64,000 nucleotides of DNA from contig JAOVFP010000005.1 of NCBI GenBank assembly GCA_025738555.1, positions 682,001 to 746,000 on the forward strand. Direction: 5' to 3'. Numbering within the stretch: the first letter of the stretch is position 1; each line of letters begins with the position of its first letter. Made by a program: the position numbers and the translations under genes. Of this stretch, positions 5,395 through 44,169 are shown one piece after another. The stretch is from Cyathus striatus. Its lineage: Eukaryota; Basidiomycota; Agaricomycetes; Agaricales; Nidulariaceae. The notes beneath the pieces were generated by a model. The model had not been told where the DNA came from and made no database searches. It saw only the letters and a list, made by a program, of their open reading frames with translations.

Positions 5395-7185
5395 CGAACT
5401 CTCAGCCGAGTTCGCCGAGGGAGTTGCCTCGGTAGAGGTGGCAGTGGCCGCACGGGCTTTGGTGGCAGAGGCTGCCTTTCGACAGTCCTTGGCCTGATGA
5501 CCAGCATTGCCACAGAATAGGCAAAGCTTCTGGTCCAGGCGACGTTTACGTTCCTCCGGGGTGAGTTTCCCGTCAGAACCAAGCTTCCCAGTCAAGTCTG
5601 GCGCCTTGGACTGGTTCTGCTTTTGCTTGTTCTTGGGTTTCCCCGAGGACGAAGCGGAGGTAGAAGAGGCGGAGGAGGAGGTAGAGGAGGATGGAGTCTT
5701 GGAGGAGGAGGAAGAATTCGAAGTTGACTTCGAATTCTGATTGCCCTTAGGCTTCTCCGAAGACTTGGCAGCAGACTTGCTGCGCTTCTCCTCAATGTTG
5801 CACTCGGTATTGCGCTCCCAATGCCTCTGATCGTAGCCCTGGGCTACCTTCTTAGTCCCGGCAAGGGTGATAGGCCGGCCTTGCTCTCGATGAGAGAGAG
5901 CGTCCTTTAAACGAGGACAAAGGCCACGGTAATATACCGAGTTGAGGGCAGCATCATCCCAAGGCAAGAGTGCGGCATATTCGTTGAACTTTATTTCATA
6001 AGTCGTGAGCCGCTGATTATCCTCCATGTGGAGGGAGAAAATGCGAATTTCAGCCTCACCAACAGGGTTGGTATGGCCGAAGTGAGTCCGGAGGAGCTGA
6101 ATGAAGTAGCCCCATGAATCCATCCACAGCTCGTATGCATCATCATCGAGATGAGTGGCAAACAAATTGCTGGCAGAGCTACGGAGGAAAGTCAACGCGT
6201 AGTTGACTTTAGAGGCATCGTCCAGGTACAACTGGGGGTTGTTCCGGAACACCAAGCGGACTTGCGTAATGAAGGGCTCCAGCTTAAGCGTGTTGGAGCC
6301 GTCGAAGTTGTCCGGCTGGTTAACCTTCTTCTCCCGAACGGGAGGAGGAGGTGGTGGAGGTGGTGGTGGCGGGGCAAAATAACCCACCACTGAGGCCACC
6401 ATTTCCAGGATTTCATCCTGGGTGAAATTGTAGTGGGGTCTTGCAGTTGGGTGACGAGGGTCGCGGTAGGGGCCCCTGGAGGGAGGCCTTGAAGGAGGAT
6501 CAGAGGGATCAGAGGGAGGACCTCCGGGGCCATTTGGTCCGCCAGGACCATTGCCACCAGCACCTGCCTGCTCATCATCATCCCCTGGCTCGTTATCATC
6601 ATCTCCTGGCTCGTTGCCGTCATCTCCAGATCCATCACCGTCGTCACCATCATCTCCGGGTTGATCACCACCGTCTCCATTATCGTCTGGAGGGTTGTTG
6701 TTTCCAACTCCGGCAGAATTACCACCAGAAGGAGGTGGGGGTGGAGGATGTCCTCTACTGCCTGAGGCTACAGGCTGTTGGGCAGGTGGCGAAGTGGCTG
6801 TGGATGCTTGCTGCTGGCGTGCAGCTGCACCTTCCGGAGAAATCTGAGTATCCACCGGTTCGATGGACGCGTTGGGGATGAGAGTGGGGTCGTAAGGAAC
6901 GCTCAATGGTATTGGGCGTGGTGCGTGCAGTTGATTGCTGTGAACCGGCTGAAGTTCACGAGCTGCATGATGAGTGGAGGTAATTCCTCCAGAGACGAGA
7001 GCACTAGCTGAGGGTGGGGTGTTCCGCCAAGAGAGAGGCGGAGCAGAGTCAACACGACGAGGCGTGTTAGCGGTGTTACTTTCACGGGCTTGCTGAGCAG
7101 CTAGACGATTGCTATGGCGCACATCGTTTTGCTGCTGTTCATGGCTCCTAGCATGTGCAGTCTGAGTCTGCGTGCGGGTAGCCAT
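5386..7185 (-). CDS. gag: Ty3/gypsy Gag (capsid-nucleocapsid) protein
   Basis: Structural protein of the virus-like particle. I start it at the ATG at 7185 (MATRTQTQ) because the open frame upstream runs into the LTR at 7240, leaving a 54-nt leader. The N-terminal third is low-complexity, rich in Gly, Asp and Pro, with Asp/Gly repeats and a run of Pro near 6350. A capsid-like retrotransposon Gag region follows (motifs [31 protein letters not shown]). Then comes a basic Ser/Lys-rich stretch and one CCHC zinc knuckle, [14 protein letters not shown], near the C-terminus. The frame is about 599 codons and has no internal stop. Confidence 0.9.
5389..5394 (-). promoter_or_regulatory. Candidate -1 ribosomal frameshift site, gag/pol junction
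   Basis: Gag ends TCG AAA AAA TAG. The six A residues abut the stop codon, and the pol frame is exactly -1 to gag and open through this point. Slippage of AAA onto AAA bypasses the stop and enters pol (next codons ATA GAG AGC). This is not a perfect X-XXY-YYZ heptamer, because the base before the run is G. Downstream structure was not computed. Confidence 0.55.
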
Positions 7186-37339: not shown

Positions 37340-37348
37340 GGTGCCGCA

Positions 37349-37475
37349 TAGTCCGGTAGGCCGAACCGTCTAAGACGAGATCACGCTTGCGTCACATGAC
37401 TGGCGTGGGGGTATCTCGTCGATAGACGGTCCGGTAAAACTCGTTGACGTTTTAGTATAGCGTTTCTTATCGTAA
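37349..37475 (+). repeat. Left terminal inverted repeat
   Basis: Pairs with 43256-43128. Within it CCGTCTAAGACGAGAT (37365 on) and ATCTCGTCGATAGACGG (to about 37430) can fold into a stem around a loop containing GTCACATGAC. The right repeat can form the corresponding stem. Confidence 0.8.
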
Positions 37476-37584
37476 CCCTCTCCTCCCTTCACCCCTCCTC
37501 CCTTCATCCTCCCTCCCTTTCCCTGCCCTTGTTCCCCCCTTATTCACTCAAAATACTGTTTGACATCTCTAAGAAAGCTCTGCA

Positions 37585-40483
37585 ATGCCTAGTAACAGCA
37601 AGAAAGCCAACAAGCCGCGCCAAAACCAACGTAACCAGGCTAGCACAAATGCTGTGCCATCAGGGCTCGCGAGCGACTTGGCCAACGCTACGGAAAACGT
37701 TCCAAATAACAGGGAGGGGTCTTTACTGGATAACGTTGGAGGTGAAGGAAGTTCGAGCACAGTGCAGGAGCCTTTGGCTGAATCTAGGTACGCTTGACCA
37801 GTTGAATTGGGTCTATCACATACTAACAACTTGTTTTTTAATCTAGTCATGCTGCTTCGGGTGCTGGGGCCAAATCACGAGCAGCTAGGAGATCTCTAGC
37901 TACGAAGGTCTCGGAGATTTTGCCATCTCTCAAGGATGCGTATATTAGTCCTTTCGACGTGGTCGGAGCACTTCTAGATGAAAACAATGTGGAATTTCGA
38001 GCCTATCGCACCGAACTGTATAAACCTAGTAATAAGAAGTTGTTTTCTATTCTTGATAATGTTGCTGCAAGTGGATATGGTCGAGACAAGTTGTTAATGT
38101 GGCTAAGGAGTCCTACTGGCGCTGGGCTATATGAAGACAAGATTGGAGAAGAAATGGATATGCTTCGTGACAAGTACAAGCTGAAAGGCTTAGGAGAAAT
38201 CACCCCAGAGTATATTGAAAACCGAGAAGCTGATACCTTTAGAGAGGATGCGCCATTTACAATGGGTTTATTACGTTGCGCTGCGCAGACAAAGCGGCAG
38301 GAGGAAGAAAACATAAAGAAGAAACCAGATCAGGTAACTATCGCATGCCCATTGGTACCATTCGTCATTTATATATATTCTTAACAGGTTTGTAATTCAG
38401 TTATGCGTCAGCTCCTTTACCAGCATTCCGGCCGCTGTCTTGGTTTCAGTGCTGAGTTTGGGCTATACCTGTGGGCCACTGGCTCTGCGCGCTCTACCAT
38501 TGATGCTATGCATTGTTGTGGGCTTTGTGTATGCTACCCATCGGTCTTTAACCATGTAAGGGCCCTTGTGACAGGGTGTATGTGCCTTGCCAAAGCTGTG
38601 GCCGCTTCCCCTCATGCTTTCTGCTATGATAACTTGAATCTCAGCACGTCAATTCATGTTGAGCAGCGCGGTTCGTCATCTACTCCAGGAAAGGTGACAT
38701 CTGGCACACTTGGGATTTTATACAAATTGCCAAATGCGACACGGGAAGTCATGGAACTGCAGCCAATTTTAGACAGAATGTGCAACCCAATGTATCGTGG
38801 TCTTGATTTCACAAAAGACCTTACATTATCTGATGAACAACTCGACTCCGTGTTTTATCAGTTCCGAATACACATTATTAAAATTCTCTTCAAACACTGC
38901 GATAAACTTGACAAGCAATACTACCAGTCGGAATCACTGCTGAAACATAAAGCACGTCGTCCACTCCCACCTGACCAGCGTACCAAATTTTACCCGATCC
39001 GAGTATCTACTCATGAAGAAGCATCGACAAAAGGAAATCTCCTCTATCATGATGAGGTGTACTTAAATATGTTGGAGCAAAAAGCAGAAGAGCTATCGAA
39101 GTGGTGTATCCTTAGTATAAACGACCAGCTTACTAATGCCCGCATTCGCTCTGGCCAACTCTTACGTGCAGATGATCTAAACAACTACTATCGACGGCTC
39201 ATATTTCAACTAGGCATGGGGCTTTTCCATGCCGTGCTCAATCTGGCATGGGCACTCTTACATATCCATCGAGGGACACTAAGTCAACAGGGTTCACTGA
39301 CGTACTGGTTTGCAATTCCCGAGAAGACCCGTCTCGGCGGGCAAAAGCCTGATTATCATACATTATATGCCACTCTCACTCAGATTCTTGAAGGGGTCGT
39401 TCTCTGTGCTTGGAAGAAAATTTGTACTGAAGACGGAAGCACGATTGAAATGTATGCAAAGTCGAAGCCAGCGCCTGAGGACCTTCATGACAAGGCTGGA
39501 GTGCTTCTTGAGGAGTACTTGACTCCACTTCCTCCATTGTTCTCTGCTGGTCAAAATACTGATGACACTGACAACTCCGATACCCTTGTATCATCATCTG
39601 GTAACACTGTTGTACCTCCTCCTGTTGTATGTGAGGGCCAAGTGGACCCTTTAAAGGATAAAGTCCATCAGAACCTACGTCTCCTTATGCGAGATACTCT
39701 CTATCTTTTGGAGCTTGTTTCTTCTATAAAGGATGGAGACTTTGGTCGCATTGAAGATATTTTACCCCACCTGGCAATGATATATCGTGGTGCTGGCAGT
39801 AACAATTATTGTACAGAGACACTCTTTATGATCCAAAACCTGAAGTATATATGGACACCAGAGCTTTCGTGCATTTCATTGCTATTCTGCAATAAACATT
39901 GAATAACCATACATATTTCACCAGAGATATTATGCGGGATATACTTATTGTAAATCCTTCAGGTATTCCTGGACACAACATTGCTACTGATGCTAACATG
40001 GAATACACAATTCGAGAAGTCAAGGTTTGTTATTTGTTCTAATCTAGTCTAGTTAATTTTTTCTTACTTAGTATTTAGGAACTAATCATTGTAAAAGGTT
40101 TACAAACAACATGGGATCAGGTTGGCGATGTTTCTGCTGCTATTGTATACATCAAGGAAATAAAACGGAAGATTGCGAACCAGTTGAACCTTCCCCATCA
40201 GAACAAAGGTCACTCTGATGTTGATGTCTCTCATCTTGTACAGCGAATTGCGAGCAGGGTGGAGGTTGAGAATATGCTGACCTTTAGACCAAATCGGACT
40301 GGTAATAATTGTGTTGCTCCAATTCATGACTTGCTTGAAGAAGGCTCCAAGAAATTAAAATCAGATTCCCTTAGCACGTTCAATACAAAGTTCAAAAACT
40401 TTATAGCAGGAATGGTAATTGAAGAAGAAAACGATGACTTGCCAGCATTTGGGCTTTCAGTCGATGAGATGGAAATTGAGTAG
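37585..40483 (+). CDS. DUF6589 family protein, 891 residues, candidate transposase
   Basis: Exons 37585-37787, 37847-38333, 38388-39868, 39925-40024 and 40079-40483 sum to 2,676 nt with no stop. Introns are 54-59 nt, and the first has a TACTAAC branch. The N-terminus is basic and low-complexity. The body matches the DUF6589 proteins common in Agaricomycetes: FCYDNLNLSTSIHVEQRG, KVTSGTLGILYKL, YWFAIPEKTRLGGQKPDYHTL and NPSGIPGHNIATDANMEYTI. Conserved acidic residues in YDNLN and ATDANMEY could belong to an RNase H-fold active site, but that is a guess. It is the only complete gene in the inverted-repeat element. A CT-rich tract at 37478-37540 precedes the start, as in many fungal promoters. 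Confidence 0.85.
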
Positions 40484-40507
40484 ACCATTTAATAATATAA
40501 AATTGTA

Positions 40508-43114
40508 TTATACATGTGCATTTCTTTGAGCTAATTCAGCTTCCCTGCGTGCCTTTGCCTCTATATGTGCCCTTTCCACTGCTTCCTGACGCCGATTTTC
40601 CTGGTCTAATTCAAATGCACTTTTATTTCTATCCTCTCTGCTTTGACAAGATGCTTGGAAGATGGTGTTTTTGGCCTCTAGATTCTGTATCTGTAGCAAT
40701 CGTCTTTGTGCCTCATTCGCATCAATCTGACCAAGAACTCCATAAGTTTGAGAGCGCTGATTAGAATCATTCTTAAAAGCTTCTCGAATACTTTCTGCCT
40801 GCTCTGCTATCTTATCCAATTTTCTTCGTTTTCGTTGCTCTTCTCGTTCCAGCTGTTTCTCTTCTTGTAACTGACTAACTTCCTGATCGAAATCATGAAT
40901 GACATTGAATATCAGGCCAGCCCATTTAGTCTCCCACTCTGCACTTTCACCTATGCTCAGGGTTACTTGCTGGTAGTTAACAATTTCAGATGGGTGAACA
41001 CGAGCAATGTTTTCAATCGCCTTGTCACTGAGGATTAGGTACTGGGGGCGAATAGCATGGTACTTGTCTTTTTTCCAGGTTTCATAGCGCCATTTAGCTA
41101 GTCGAGATGCCAGTGAAGTTCATTGTATACGAGGTAGTCGGTAGTGAGTGATACTGCCAGATGCACATTTTTCTGCTGATGGTACAGAATATGGTTTGCG
41201 ATGAGGATCTGATGGTGAGCTGGAGTAGATGATTCCAGTGAGCGGATCATGGTATAGTAGCTTTCCAGGAAAGTAGAACGAGAAATCAAAGGGGTCCAAG
41301 TGAGCAGTACTATTGCAGCAAAAGGGACCTGTAAATAATAGCGCTACAAAAGCATGAGATGATGTCACCACAGAGATTTGGTGTGAAGTATAGAGGAATA
41401 CCATTATCACTCCTGTCATTATTGTATGTCGCATATGTTTCTCGCAAACATTTATCTGAATTCTGAACCATTTTCAGCATGGAAATGCCTGTTCGTTCTT
41501 TTTTTGTGGTCTTTTCAGTAATTTCACCACAAATTGGTCGATCTGGATCAAGTGTTGGTTGTACAGTGTCTATCAAGCTCTCCTTCTCCAATGCGACATG
41601 CAAATCTACCTCCCTTGCCCATGATTCAAACATTAAAAGGAAAATGGATGGTGTAACGCCATCACGCCCACAACGACCTGCTCTCTGTAAGGTCATTGTC
41701 ATCTCTCTTGGTATTCCATACTGAACAACCCAATCAACGTCTTGGACATCTAAACCCTAAGGCAATGTTGAAAAAGACCAAGAAATAGAATCATAAATAA
41801 GTCGCACTGTAGATGCAGCTTCTGTTGCGTGTAGAATCATACATCTACCATTTGGATCACGAAAGTCGTTATATGTTTCTTTGAGATACTCATCCGACAT
41901 CAGGCTGAAGAATGTCTTCACTAAGCCTTTTCCACGCAACTCTGGTGCCAACCGGTTCTCTTGAAAGTTCTTAGCACCAATAGCGCTTTCAACGCTGTCA
42001 TGAAATACAATTCCCTTTTGACGGCAGTGAATGTCGGTACTTGGGACCAAGAGATTTTGAATTATAAAGTCAAGATTTCGAAAATCGCTCAAGGGCCCAA
42101 CGATCTCATGAGTTGCATATGCAATATTAGGGCGATTGCAAGACATTTTGATATCGCATAACCGGTCATCATTGAAGTGTAGATGTTGCTTGACAGTTGC
42201 TTTAATGTGATCTGGAAGAGTTCCTGAAAGTGCTGCAACTGAAACCTTTGATCCCAACTTCATCCGGAGCTCAGAGAGATGGCCCCAAGCAGGCCGAAAT
42301 GCCTTCCCCCCATAGAGATTGATGCCCGCGGTGTATATAGAATGGACTTCATCGACAAACAGAAATAAGATTCGCTTCAGGAAGTCGATTTTGTGGAGAA
42401 AACGCGATAGTCGTGGCCAATGGCCATTGTTGATGAAGAATTGCTTGGCCTGAACGACGAGAACTGAATAGGCACCAGTGTAAACATCCTATCCGGTGTA
42501 CCATAGAGTTTAGATGGTTTAAGCAATAGTAAAACTAGCACCCAGACCTTCCAAAGCTTCTGATCGTTAGGTGTTTCTTCATTTATTGCCAATGTAGAGA
42601 TGCCATATGACCGAAATTCGAGTACTTGCATCTCTTGCAGCTTCTTCAACGGAGATATGACAATAGAGATGCGATGTTGATGTAGAAGCACTGGGAGTAT
42701 CATGCAGAATGTCTTCCCAGATCCTGTACCAGCGTCAATGAGAGCATCCTTTCAAGTACAGAGAGCTATCGTTGCTTGAAGTTGAAATGCACGCGGAGTC
42801 TTCTTAAAGCCAGACACGATGAACATAGCTAGCGTCACCTTTAGACCAATAAGCTTCTCCCTCTCCTTGTATGAGTCCCAAAACTCCCCAGAAACAGCCT
42901 TATCTGCCGGTATATGGGTATTGTAAAGCTCTTGAGCTTCTTGAATGCTTGTGAGCACTGTAACATAAGCCAAAGTTAGTCTATTCATGTCAGTGAGGGG
43001 CTCATCGCATGTCTCCATCTTAATAAGAACACCAGCAAACTTAAATGAGTTGAGGACAGTGGAAAAGAACCAAGGGAACAGGGTATATTGTGCGAGCAAG
43101 GGAGGAAAGCGCAC
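40508..43114 (-). pseudogene. RecQ-like DEAH-type DNA helicase with two nonsense codons
   Basis: The frame runs from the Met at 43114 through introns 42489-42549, 41757-41807 and 41329-41368 to the stop at 40508. Motifs: Walker A AGTGSGKTF, the DExH box as DEVHSIY, SGTLPDHIK, and motif VI QRAGRCGRDG, as in RecQ helicases. A Cys-containing zinc region (LDPFDF nearby) and a long charged coiled coil follow to the end. TGA at 42752 and at 41120 interrupt the frame; both positions fit CGA (Arg) to TGA. The coding sequence is otherwise continuous, so loss is recent or the stops are suppressed. In the element the helicase could serve strand unwinding during transposition or repair (inference). Confidence 0.8.
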
Positions 43115-43127
43115 GCGACGAGGACAC

Positions 43128-43256
43128 GTAAGAAATGCTACACCAAAACCTCAACGAGTTTTACCGGTCTGCCTATCAACGAGATAGGCCACGCGCCCTC
43201 ACATGACAAAAAGCGTGATCTCGTTCCCAGGATAGGCAGACCGGCCCTCCGGTCTA
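43128..43256 (-). repeat. Right terminal inverted repeat
   Basis: Inverted copy of 37349-37475. ACCGGTCTGCCTATC (43163 on) and GATAGGCAGACCGG (to 43244) pair within the repeat. The stem sequence differs from the left end while the ability to pair is retained. Confidence 0.8.
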
Positions 43257-43344
43257 GGTGCCGCAGACCGTATTTTAAATAGGCAACAATACCGAGTAGT
43301 ACGTAAGCGTTAAATCACGTGCTTATAAACGCGTTCCTACTTCT

Positions 43345-44169
43345 TTGCATACAGATTCTCTTCTTACTATCTCTGGATGCGCATTGACTGATCGTCCCAC
43401 AATGGAAGCAATTTGTTCAATTCCTCTGAACTATCACCATTTAAATGAAGCAGCTTACGACTCTCTCGCCCGTCATCTTACGGCTTTGCGATTGGCTATC
43501 GATACGCTACGTGAACGTGCAGGCCAAACAGTTCCACCACAATTCATGCCTTCAGCAAGCCCTCCCTACGGATTTACACCATTTGTCACACGTATCTTCC
43601 CGTACCCAACCACATTCACAGCTCTTAACTCGGACAAATCATTATCCTTCACGTATCTTTCGGAAGTTGAAGGGCGACGGTACCTTTTTAGAGGACAAAC
43701 GGAAAGCGGTCGCAGTATTTGCATCAAGTTCGTACACCGATACGGAAAGGACGTCCATGAATGGTGCGCACGGCAGGGATTTGCGCCTGAATTAATCGCA
43801 TTTGAGAAGCTCCCTGGAGGGTGGTTTATGATCGTTATGGAATACCTGGATAAATCATGGGGCACCCTTTCCAATGGAACTTCTGACATCACTGTGCGAC
43901 ACGTATTTAAGGAACCGATATATAAGGCCCTCAACGACCTCCATCGAAATGGTATGGTTCATGGAGATATTGGCGATATGAATGTTATGGTCAAGAAAGG
44001 AGGGAATGCGTTTGTGCTCGTTGGCTTCGACTGGGCGGGTTTGGCCGAAAAGGTCACTTATCCATACATCAATGGTAATGATGCGATAGGTCGGCCAGAT
44101 GATGCACGTTATAGCAAGCCAATTTTGCCTCGACACGACATTCAGATGCTCGAAAGGGTGTTTTTGTAG
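43345..44169 (+). CDS. Truncated Crinkler-linked kinase paralogue, probable pseudokinase
   Basis: A single 274-codon frame that aligns with the C-terminal part of the Crinkler-type protein from the segment ALTDRPTMEA onwards. The headers and nuclease-like domain are absent. The ATP-anchoring region (IKFVHRYGKD) is kept. The catalytic loop reads HGDIGDMNVM (Arg to Gly before the second Asp), and the metal-binding motif reads LVGFDWAG, so the Asp is Gly. Both changes predict no phosphotransfer. It starts 89 bp right of the DUF6589 element end, so the missing N-terminus may have been lost with that insertion, though the left flank of the element holds no matching piece. Confidence 0.7.
   Translation: MHTDSLLTISGCALTDRPTMEAICSIPLNYHHLNEAAYDSLARHLTALRLAIDTLRERAGQTVPPQFMPSASPPYGFTPFVTRIFPYPTTFTALNSDKSLSFTYLSEVEGRRYLFRGQTESGRSICIKFVHRYGKDVHEWCARQGFAPELIAFEKLPGGWFMIVMEYLDKSWGTLSNGTSDITVRHVFKEPIYKALNDLHRNGMVHGDIGDMNVMVKKGGNAFVLVGFDWAGLAEKVTYPYINGNDAIGRPDDARYSKPILPRHDIQMLERVFL

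Follow-up and report, generated by a model that had tools for sequence, protein, structure and literature searches.

What kind of mobile element carries a RecQ-like helicase gene next to a gene for a domain of unknown function, and which of the two proteins moves it? The question is raised by a 5,908-bp element of the basidiomycete Cyathus striatus, located at positions 37349-43256 of a 64,000-nucleotide stretch of contig JAOVFP010000005.1 (682001-746000 of this contig, C5 in our numbering; the assembly comprises 107 Mb in 24 contigs). This whole stretch is called the window below. One of the two genes codes for a protein with the DUF6589 domain (PF20231), filed in Pfam as a family of unknown function. 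We demonstrated that the element has long inverted ends and duplicates its target site, and that its two genes recur side by side in the genome. Judging by this architecture rather than by a tree, we consider it probable (at roughly 0.8) that the element belongs to the AcademH kind of DNA transposons, with DUF6589 as its candidate DDE transposase.

Ends, target duplications and copies

The element is bounded by two terminal inverted repeats, whose lengths were taken from the ends that recur in other copies. The left one (37349-37469, about 121 bp) begins with TAGTCCGGTAGGCCG, and element bases 1-121 recur as the left end of non-autonomous copies of about 570 bp; the right one (43128-43256, about 129 bp) terminates in ..CGGCCCTCCGGTCTA, and bases 5780-5908 recur as the right end of the short copies. 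The two arms align with a score of 141; when one arm was shuffled 200 times, the score never exceeded 44. An exact 9-bp target-site duplication, GGTGCCGCA, flanks the element (left copy, 37340-37348; right copy, 43257-43265), and a search of the whole window on both strands found it at these two positions only. A preliminary description of the locus, which announced inverted repeats of about 120 bp and a perfect 9-bp flanking duplication, is hence confirmed on both points. The short end motif TAGNCCGGNNG occurs 505 times forward and 510 times in reverse in the whole genome, against 551 and 541 times for a reversed-pattern control, so that this motif alone carries no signal. No match was found in a plasmid collection.

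A DNA search of the genome with the element returned at least 125 matching pieces. Ten large copies could be read at both ends (the window copy, L032, L034+L042, L035+L041, L036, L037, L038, L039, L040, and L046+L043; those with one end only, e.g., L033, were excluded from the count), and eight of them display a perfect 9-bp duplication. The same holds for 13 of the 15 short copies fetched, which measure 521-593 bp between paired ends, two single-ended copies (C2:4337983 and C18:2375259) being left out. Overall, 9-bp duplications flank 21 of 25 copies, and all 21 differ in sequence. We also joined the flanks of copies, keeping one copy of the duplication, and compared them with the retrieved loci and the window, i.e., with paralogous sites of one genome, self-matches being excluded (L069 to L060, which is the same place, and L031 to the window). 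For L067, the sequence joined in this way matches the ends of related elements through the junction (88% over 150-151 bp with L037, L038, L039, and L040, and more weakly with others); for L071, it matches a different repeat, located in L060 (93% over 97 bp). Both matches are related sites without the insert. The preliminary description had proposed to align the flanks of paralogous copies for 9-bp duplications and empty sites; such duplications flank most copies, and related empty sites exist for these two.

L067 and L071 are themselves nested insertions: each is a short copy that landed in the end of another repeat, either of this kind or of a similar one. Copies of the element are also directly adjoined or surrounded by a second family of repeats whose ends are similar (TAGACCGGWAGCCGGTCGG), at L060:1691 and L039:560; at L039, an end of this family and the far end of the element have a 9-bp duplication in common. 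On contig C1 (6.19-6.46 Mb), six pieces (L053, L054, L055, L056, L057, and L059) are 72-77% identical to the first 549 bases of the element; two of them reach the element end and four start at base 123-148. Since the six sit within a locally repeated unit of at least 1.7 kb, they seem to descend from an old insertion that was copied there by segmental duplication.

The DUF6589 gene and its helicase partner

The DUF6589 gene, which we read as that of a candidate DDE transposase, lies on the forward strand (37585-40483) and consists of five exons (37585-37787, 37847-38333, 38388-39868, 39925-40024, and 40079-40483). The introns are of the GT..AG type, and the splice sites, picked by eye, yield an open frame of 891 codons plus a stop, exactly as first described. 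The Pfam DUF6589 family matches the main exon (E = 1.3e-67). Pfam scans of the window proteins detected no domain of Mutator-like elements (MULEs) or of any other transposase, in agreement with the earlier remark that no known transposase is present, and a PDB sequence search with the DUF6589 profile gave no match up to E = 10. The fold was modelled with AF2 on P0001, a DUF6589 relative (pLDDT 77.7). In VIA-align, transposases fill the first 12 rows for this model (Hermes, 11.0 to 8.8; P element, 8.9; ISCth4, 8.3; Tn5, 7.4 to 6.8), and the next row scores 4.9.

Three acidic residues of the window protein stand out as candidate catalytic residues. D311 (codon 38628-38630, forward strand, as are the next two) aligns to D313 of P0001, in the first strand of the model, and the column holds D in 44 of 44 letters. 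D476 (39123-39125) aligns to D478, directly after the strand 473-477 (D in 42 of 42 letters), and E707 (39816-39818), the candidate glutamate, aligns to E703, in the helix 698-714 (E in 35 of 35 letters). From these data we infer that DUF6589 is a predicted RNase H-like DDE transposase. The earlier proposal that DUF6589 mobilises the element, through an RNase H fold with three acidic residues, is thereby supported in the relative P0001, by a predicted fold and the conserved D313, D478, and E703. The Pfam match in P0001 starts at residue 372, past D313, which may be why the core went unrecognised. P0001 also has a DxxH motif at 650-653, about 170 residues beyond the second aspartate (D in 38 of 39 letters, H in 32 of 40).

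The RecQ-like helicase gene lies on the reverse strand (40508-43018, read 43018-40508), in several exons, and converges on the DUF6589 gene across a gap of 24 bp (40484-40507). Its pieces match the Pfam families DEAD (8.2e-11) and Helicase_C (4.8e-7). Two in-frame stops (42752-42754 and 41120-41122) both fall in exon sequence, as judged by comparison with the related copy L037, so that the window copy has a complete open frame for DUF6589 only. Two convergent genes 24 bp apart, one of them for a RecQ-like helicase, had been reported; the arrangement stands, and the helicase gene of this copy proves to be broken. The genome also contains a copy whose helicase frame is open. Spliced from L037, the helicase counts 768 residues and matches Helicase_C (3.7e-15) and DEAD (2.8e-14); its leading matches in a PDB sequence search belong to the RecQ family: WRN (2.1e-18), the bacterial helicase 1oyw (RecQ; 8.9e-18), and RECQ1 (3.3e-17), then RECQ5 and BLM. 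The RecQ assignment is based on this spliced copy because a 243-residue piece of the window helicase gave nothing significant in the PDB sequence search (best E 0.019, entries R7 and R11; RECQ5, 0.21).

We showed that the two genes recur together. A DUF6589 search of the genome returned at least 105 matches, a good part of them fragments, which merge into 93 loci; the 243-residue helicase query returned at least 71 matches down to E = 4.9e-4, in 64 loci. A helicase match lies within 10 kb of 58 of the 93 DUF6589 loci, in convergent orientation for 57, and DUF6589 adjoins 57 of the 64 helicase loci; if the loci were placed uniformly, about 1.1 pairs would be expected. At the shorter distance of 6 kb, at which co-occurrence had been predicted, 54 DUF6589 loci have a helicase (counted by hand). 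In each of two DUF6589 protein searches, no more than 7,991 candidates were scored; the closest proteins listed by one of them come from Candolleomyces, Cyathus, Ephemerocybe, Coprinellus, and Lactarius. Named relatives are annotated as "hypothetical protein", "unnamed protein product", or "DUF6589 domain-containing protein", and all 45 relatives scanned with Pfam match DUF6589, the only other matches (E up to 0.01) being a weak one each to Ntox28 and Radical_SAM. In other fungi, nine of the 30 fungal helicase matches (P0047-P0076; among the best 120 of 190) share the species and an equal-size contig with a listed DUF6589 match. For three of these nine, the helicase and DUF6589 genes bear consecutive numbers (Candolleomyces aberdarensis g3858/g3859, Coprinellus aureogranulatus g2074/g2073, and Dentipellis fragilis g10773/g10774); for the other six, the link is the equal-size contig only. 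The remaining 21 have no such partner among the DUF6589 matches listed.

Classification and alternative readings

In the available passages of two papers, AcademH is described as a helicase-encoding Academ lineage with duplications of 9 or 10 bp (PMC10045372), present at low copy number in Basidiomycota, Ascomycota, and Mucoromycota (PMC10799480). AcademX is given duplications of 3 or 4 bp, the contrast with AcademH being seemingly tied to the helicase and nuclease (PMC10045372). The preliminary description had seen in the element a possible new class of DNA transposon; it is a DNA transposon, and we rejected the new class because these published AcademH traits match (PMC10045372, PMC10799480). 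What is probably new is the annotation, i.e., the link between DUF6589 and AcademH. DUF6589 is named in none of the 5.39 million papers of the library searched, and the string PF20231 occurs there in four, which deal with steel sintering, the gut microbiota of pigs, photonics, and the mycobiome of infants, none with transposons as far as titles and abstract starts tell. Neither Academ reference sequences nor an Academ signature were found in the literature passages searched. The original AcademH paper, cited by both passages used, is Kojima 2020 (Mob DNA 11:15).

Several observations weigh against the AcademH assignment and the part it gives to DUF6589. The assignment goes by architecture, as the citing papers describe it. 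The large copy L038 and the short copies L073 and L074 have no duplication, and L039 has none between its own two ends, sharing one only with the outer end of a different repeat family. No helicase match lies within 10 kb of 35 of the 93 DUF6589 loci, fragments being included among these loci and the query reaching only related helicases; the preliminary description had itself named DUF6589 genes lacking inverted repeats and the helicase as evidence against its proposal, and this objection applies in part. Among the matches listed, DUF6589 homologues come from Agaricomycetes or from nameless sources, and none is named as animal. Foldseek alone, run against the PDB with the P0001 model, found nothing significant (best E 1.2), and the alignment of this model to Hermes has a root-mean-square deviation of 6.7 over 300 residues at 9% identity. 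Of the 30 DUF6589 loci that score best, only 22 keep all three acidic residues in our profile alignment; the E703 column holds H or Q in six loci (L003, L009, L017, L027, L028, and L030), which may reflect either misalignment or a changed catalytic residue.

These data could also be read in other ways. DUF6589 might found a DDE superfamily of Agaricomycetes of its own, unnamed and distinct from Academ, which would have recruited a RecQ-like helicase independently, would also make 9-bp duplications, would work as AcademH does without belonging to it, and would account for some ninety loci in this genome. Consistent with this, the Pfam scans do not connect DUF6589 by sequence with any named transposase, and the profile search returned 59 proteins, 57 labelled DUF6589 and two unlabelled, the named ones all from Agaricomycetes. 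We nevertheless hold such a superfamily to be unlikely, as the two proteins, the helicase, and the duplication length all fit the available descriptions of AcademH, a group known from Basidiomycota. Long inverted repeats and duplications of about 9 bp are also usual in MULEs, and the lengths observed here fit. However, neither the window proteins nor the 45 relatives gave a MULE or other transposase domain in the Pfam scans, and the recurrent RecQ-like partner also speaks against a MULE, which makes this identity very improbable.

Kolobok elements duplicate TTAA, whereas the 21 duplications observed here are of 9 bp and have no fixed sequence. KolobokH, the fungal Kolobok lineage with a RecQ helicase, is disfavoured by these 9-bp duplications, and we give it very little credence. 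According to the available passages of PMC9587614, its members, known so far from fungi alone, do carry a RecQ helicase, a Kolobok of a red alga encodes such a helicase on the opposite strand, as in the present element, and a C/DxxH motif, placed between the second D and the E and to be compared with the DxxH of P0001, is common to Kolobok and four other superfamilies; but the KolobokH helicase lies downstream of the transposase domain (PMC9587614), and here it is encoded by a separate, convergent gene. That the helicase moves the element, with DUF6589 as a passenger, would agree with the 57 of 64 helicase loci that adjoin DUF6589. It is hardly credible in view of the 35 DUF6589 loci without a helicase match; moreover, the DDE-like predicted fold and the conserved triad belong to DUF6589, which is the open gene in the window copy, the helicase being the broken one.

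If the element is of the AcademH kind, the DUF6589 protein would fold as an RNase H-like DDE transposase, bind the inverted repeats of about 120 bp, and cut at the TAG...CTA ends. The cut ends would then be joined to the target with a 9-bp stagger, and host repair would produce the 9-bp duplication. We infer catalysis by DUF6589 and a cut-and-paste route rather than another DDE pathway. The RecQ-like helicase would have an accessory role, its probable task being to unwind either the ends or the product of strand transfer. As its helicase gene is interrupted, the window copy may depend on a helicase supplied in trans or be inactive.

If DUF6589 is indeed a helicase-linked DDE transposase, its genes could be masked as transposons and not counted as host gene families. 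The large and short copies with perfect duplications found in one genome make a good system for asking why some eukaryotic transposons carry a helicase. Just past the right end of the window copy, a kinase-like open frame extends over 43300-44166 (Pkinase, E = 1.9e-4, a match that falls short of Pfam's cut-off). By our count, its first ATG is at 43402, roughly 145 bp away from the element, and the insertion may therefore sit in the promoter of this frame.

Comparison with known systems

Hermes, a hAT element, has an RNase H-like core with a helical insertion ahead of the glutamate, and the DUF6589 model predicts a similar layout; hAT (Hermes) and the P element provide its best-scoring solved folds. 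On the other hand, identity over the structural alignment is only 8-10%, and both systems make 8-bp duplications and have no helicase gene, whereas the duplication is of 9 bp here. KolobokH is alike as a fungal DNA transposon with a RecQ helicase, and the present element differs from it by its varied 9-bp duplications and its convergent helicase gene. AcademH is also reported from animals, whereas the DUF6589 matches listed come from fungi and nameless sources only, and its low copy number fits less well with the some ninety DUF6589 loci found here.

The available passages on Academ elements give a mean length of 5,565 bp in a bivalve study (PMC10294476), close to the 5,908 bp of the element, and putative non-autonomous elements in the mushroom Marasmius oreades (PMC8290104). 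The resemblance to AcademH itself extends to its DDE-type transposase, matched here by a predicted DDE core (modelled on P0001); to the helicase, present here as a RecQ-like convergent partner, broken in the window copy; to the duplications of 9 or 10 bp, which are of 9 bp in 21 of 25 copies here; and to the occurrence in Basidiomycota. The useful part of this comparison is that DUF6589, a domain of unknown function, may now be read as the probable cutting enzyme of a transposon of known, AcademH-type build.
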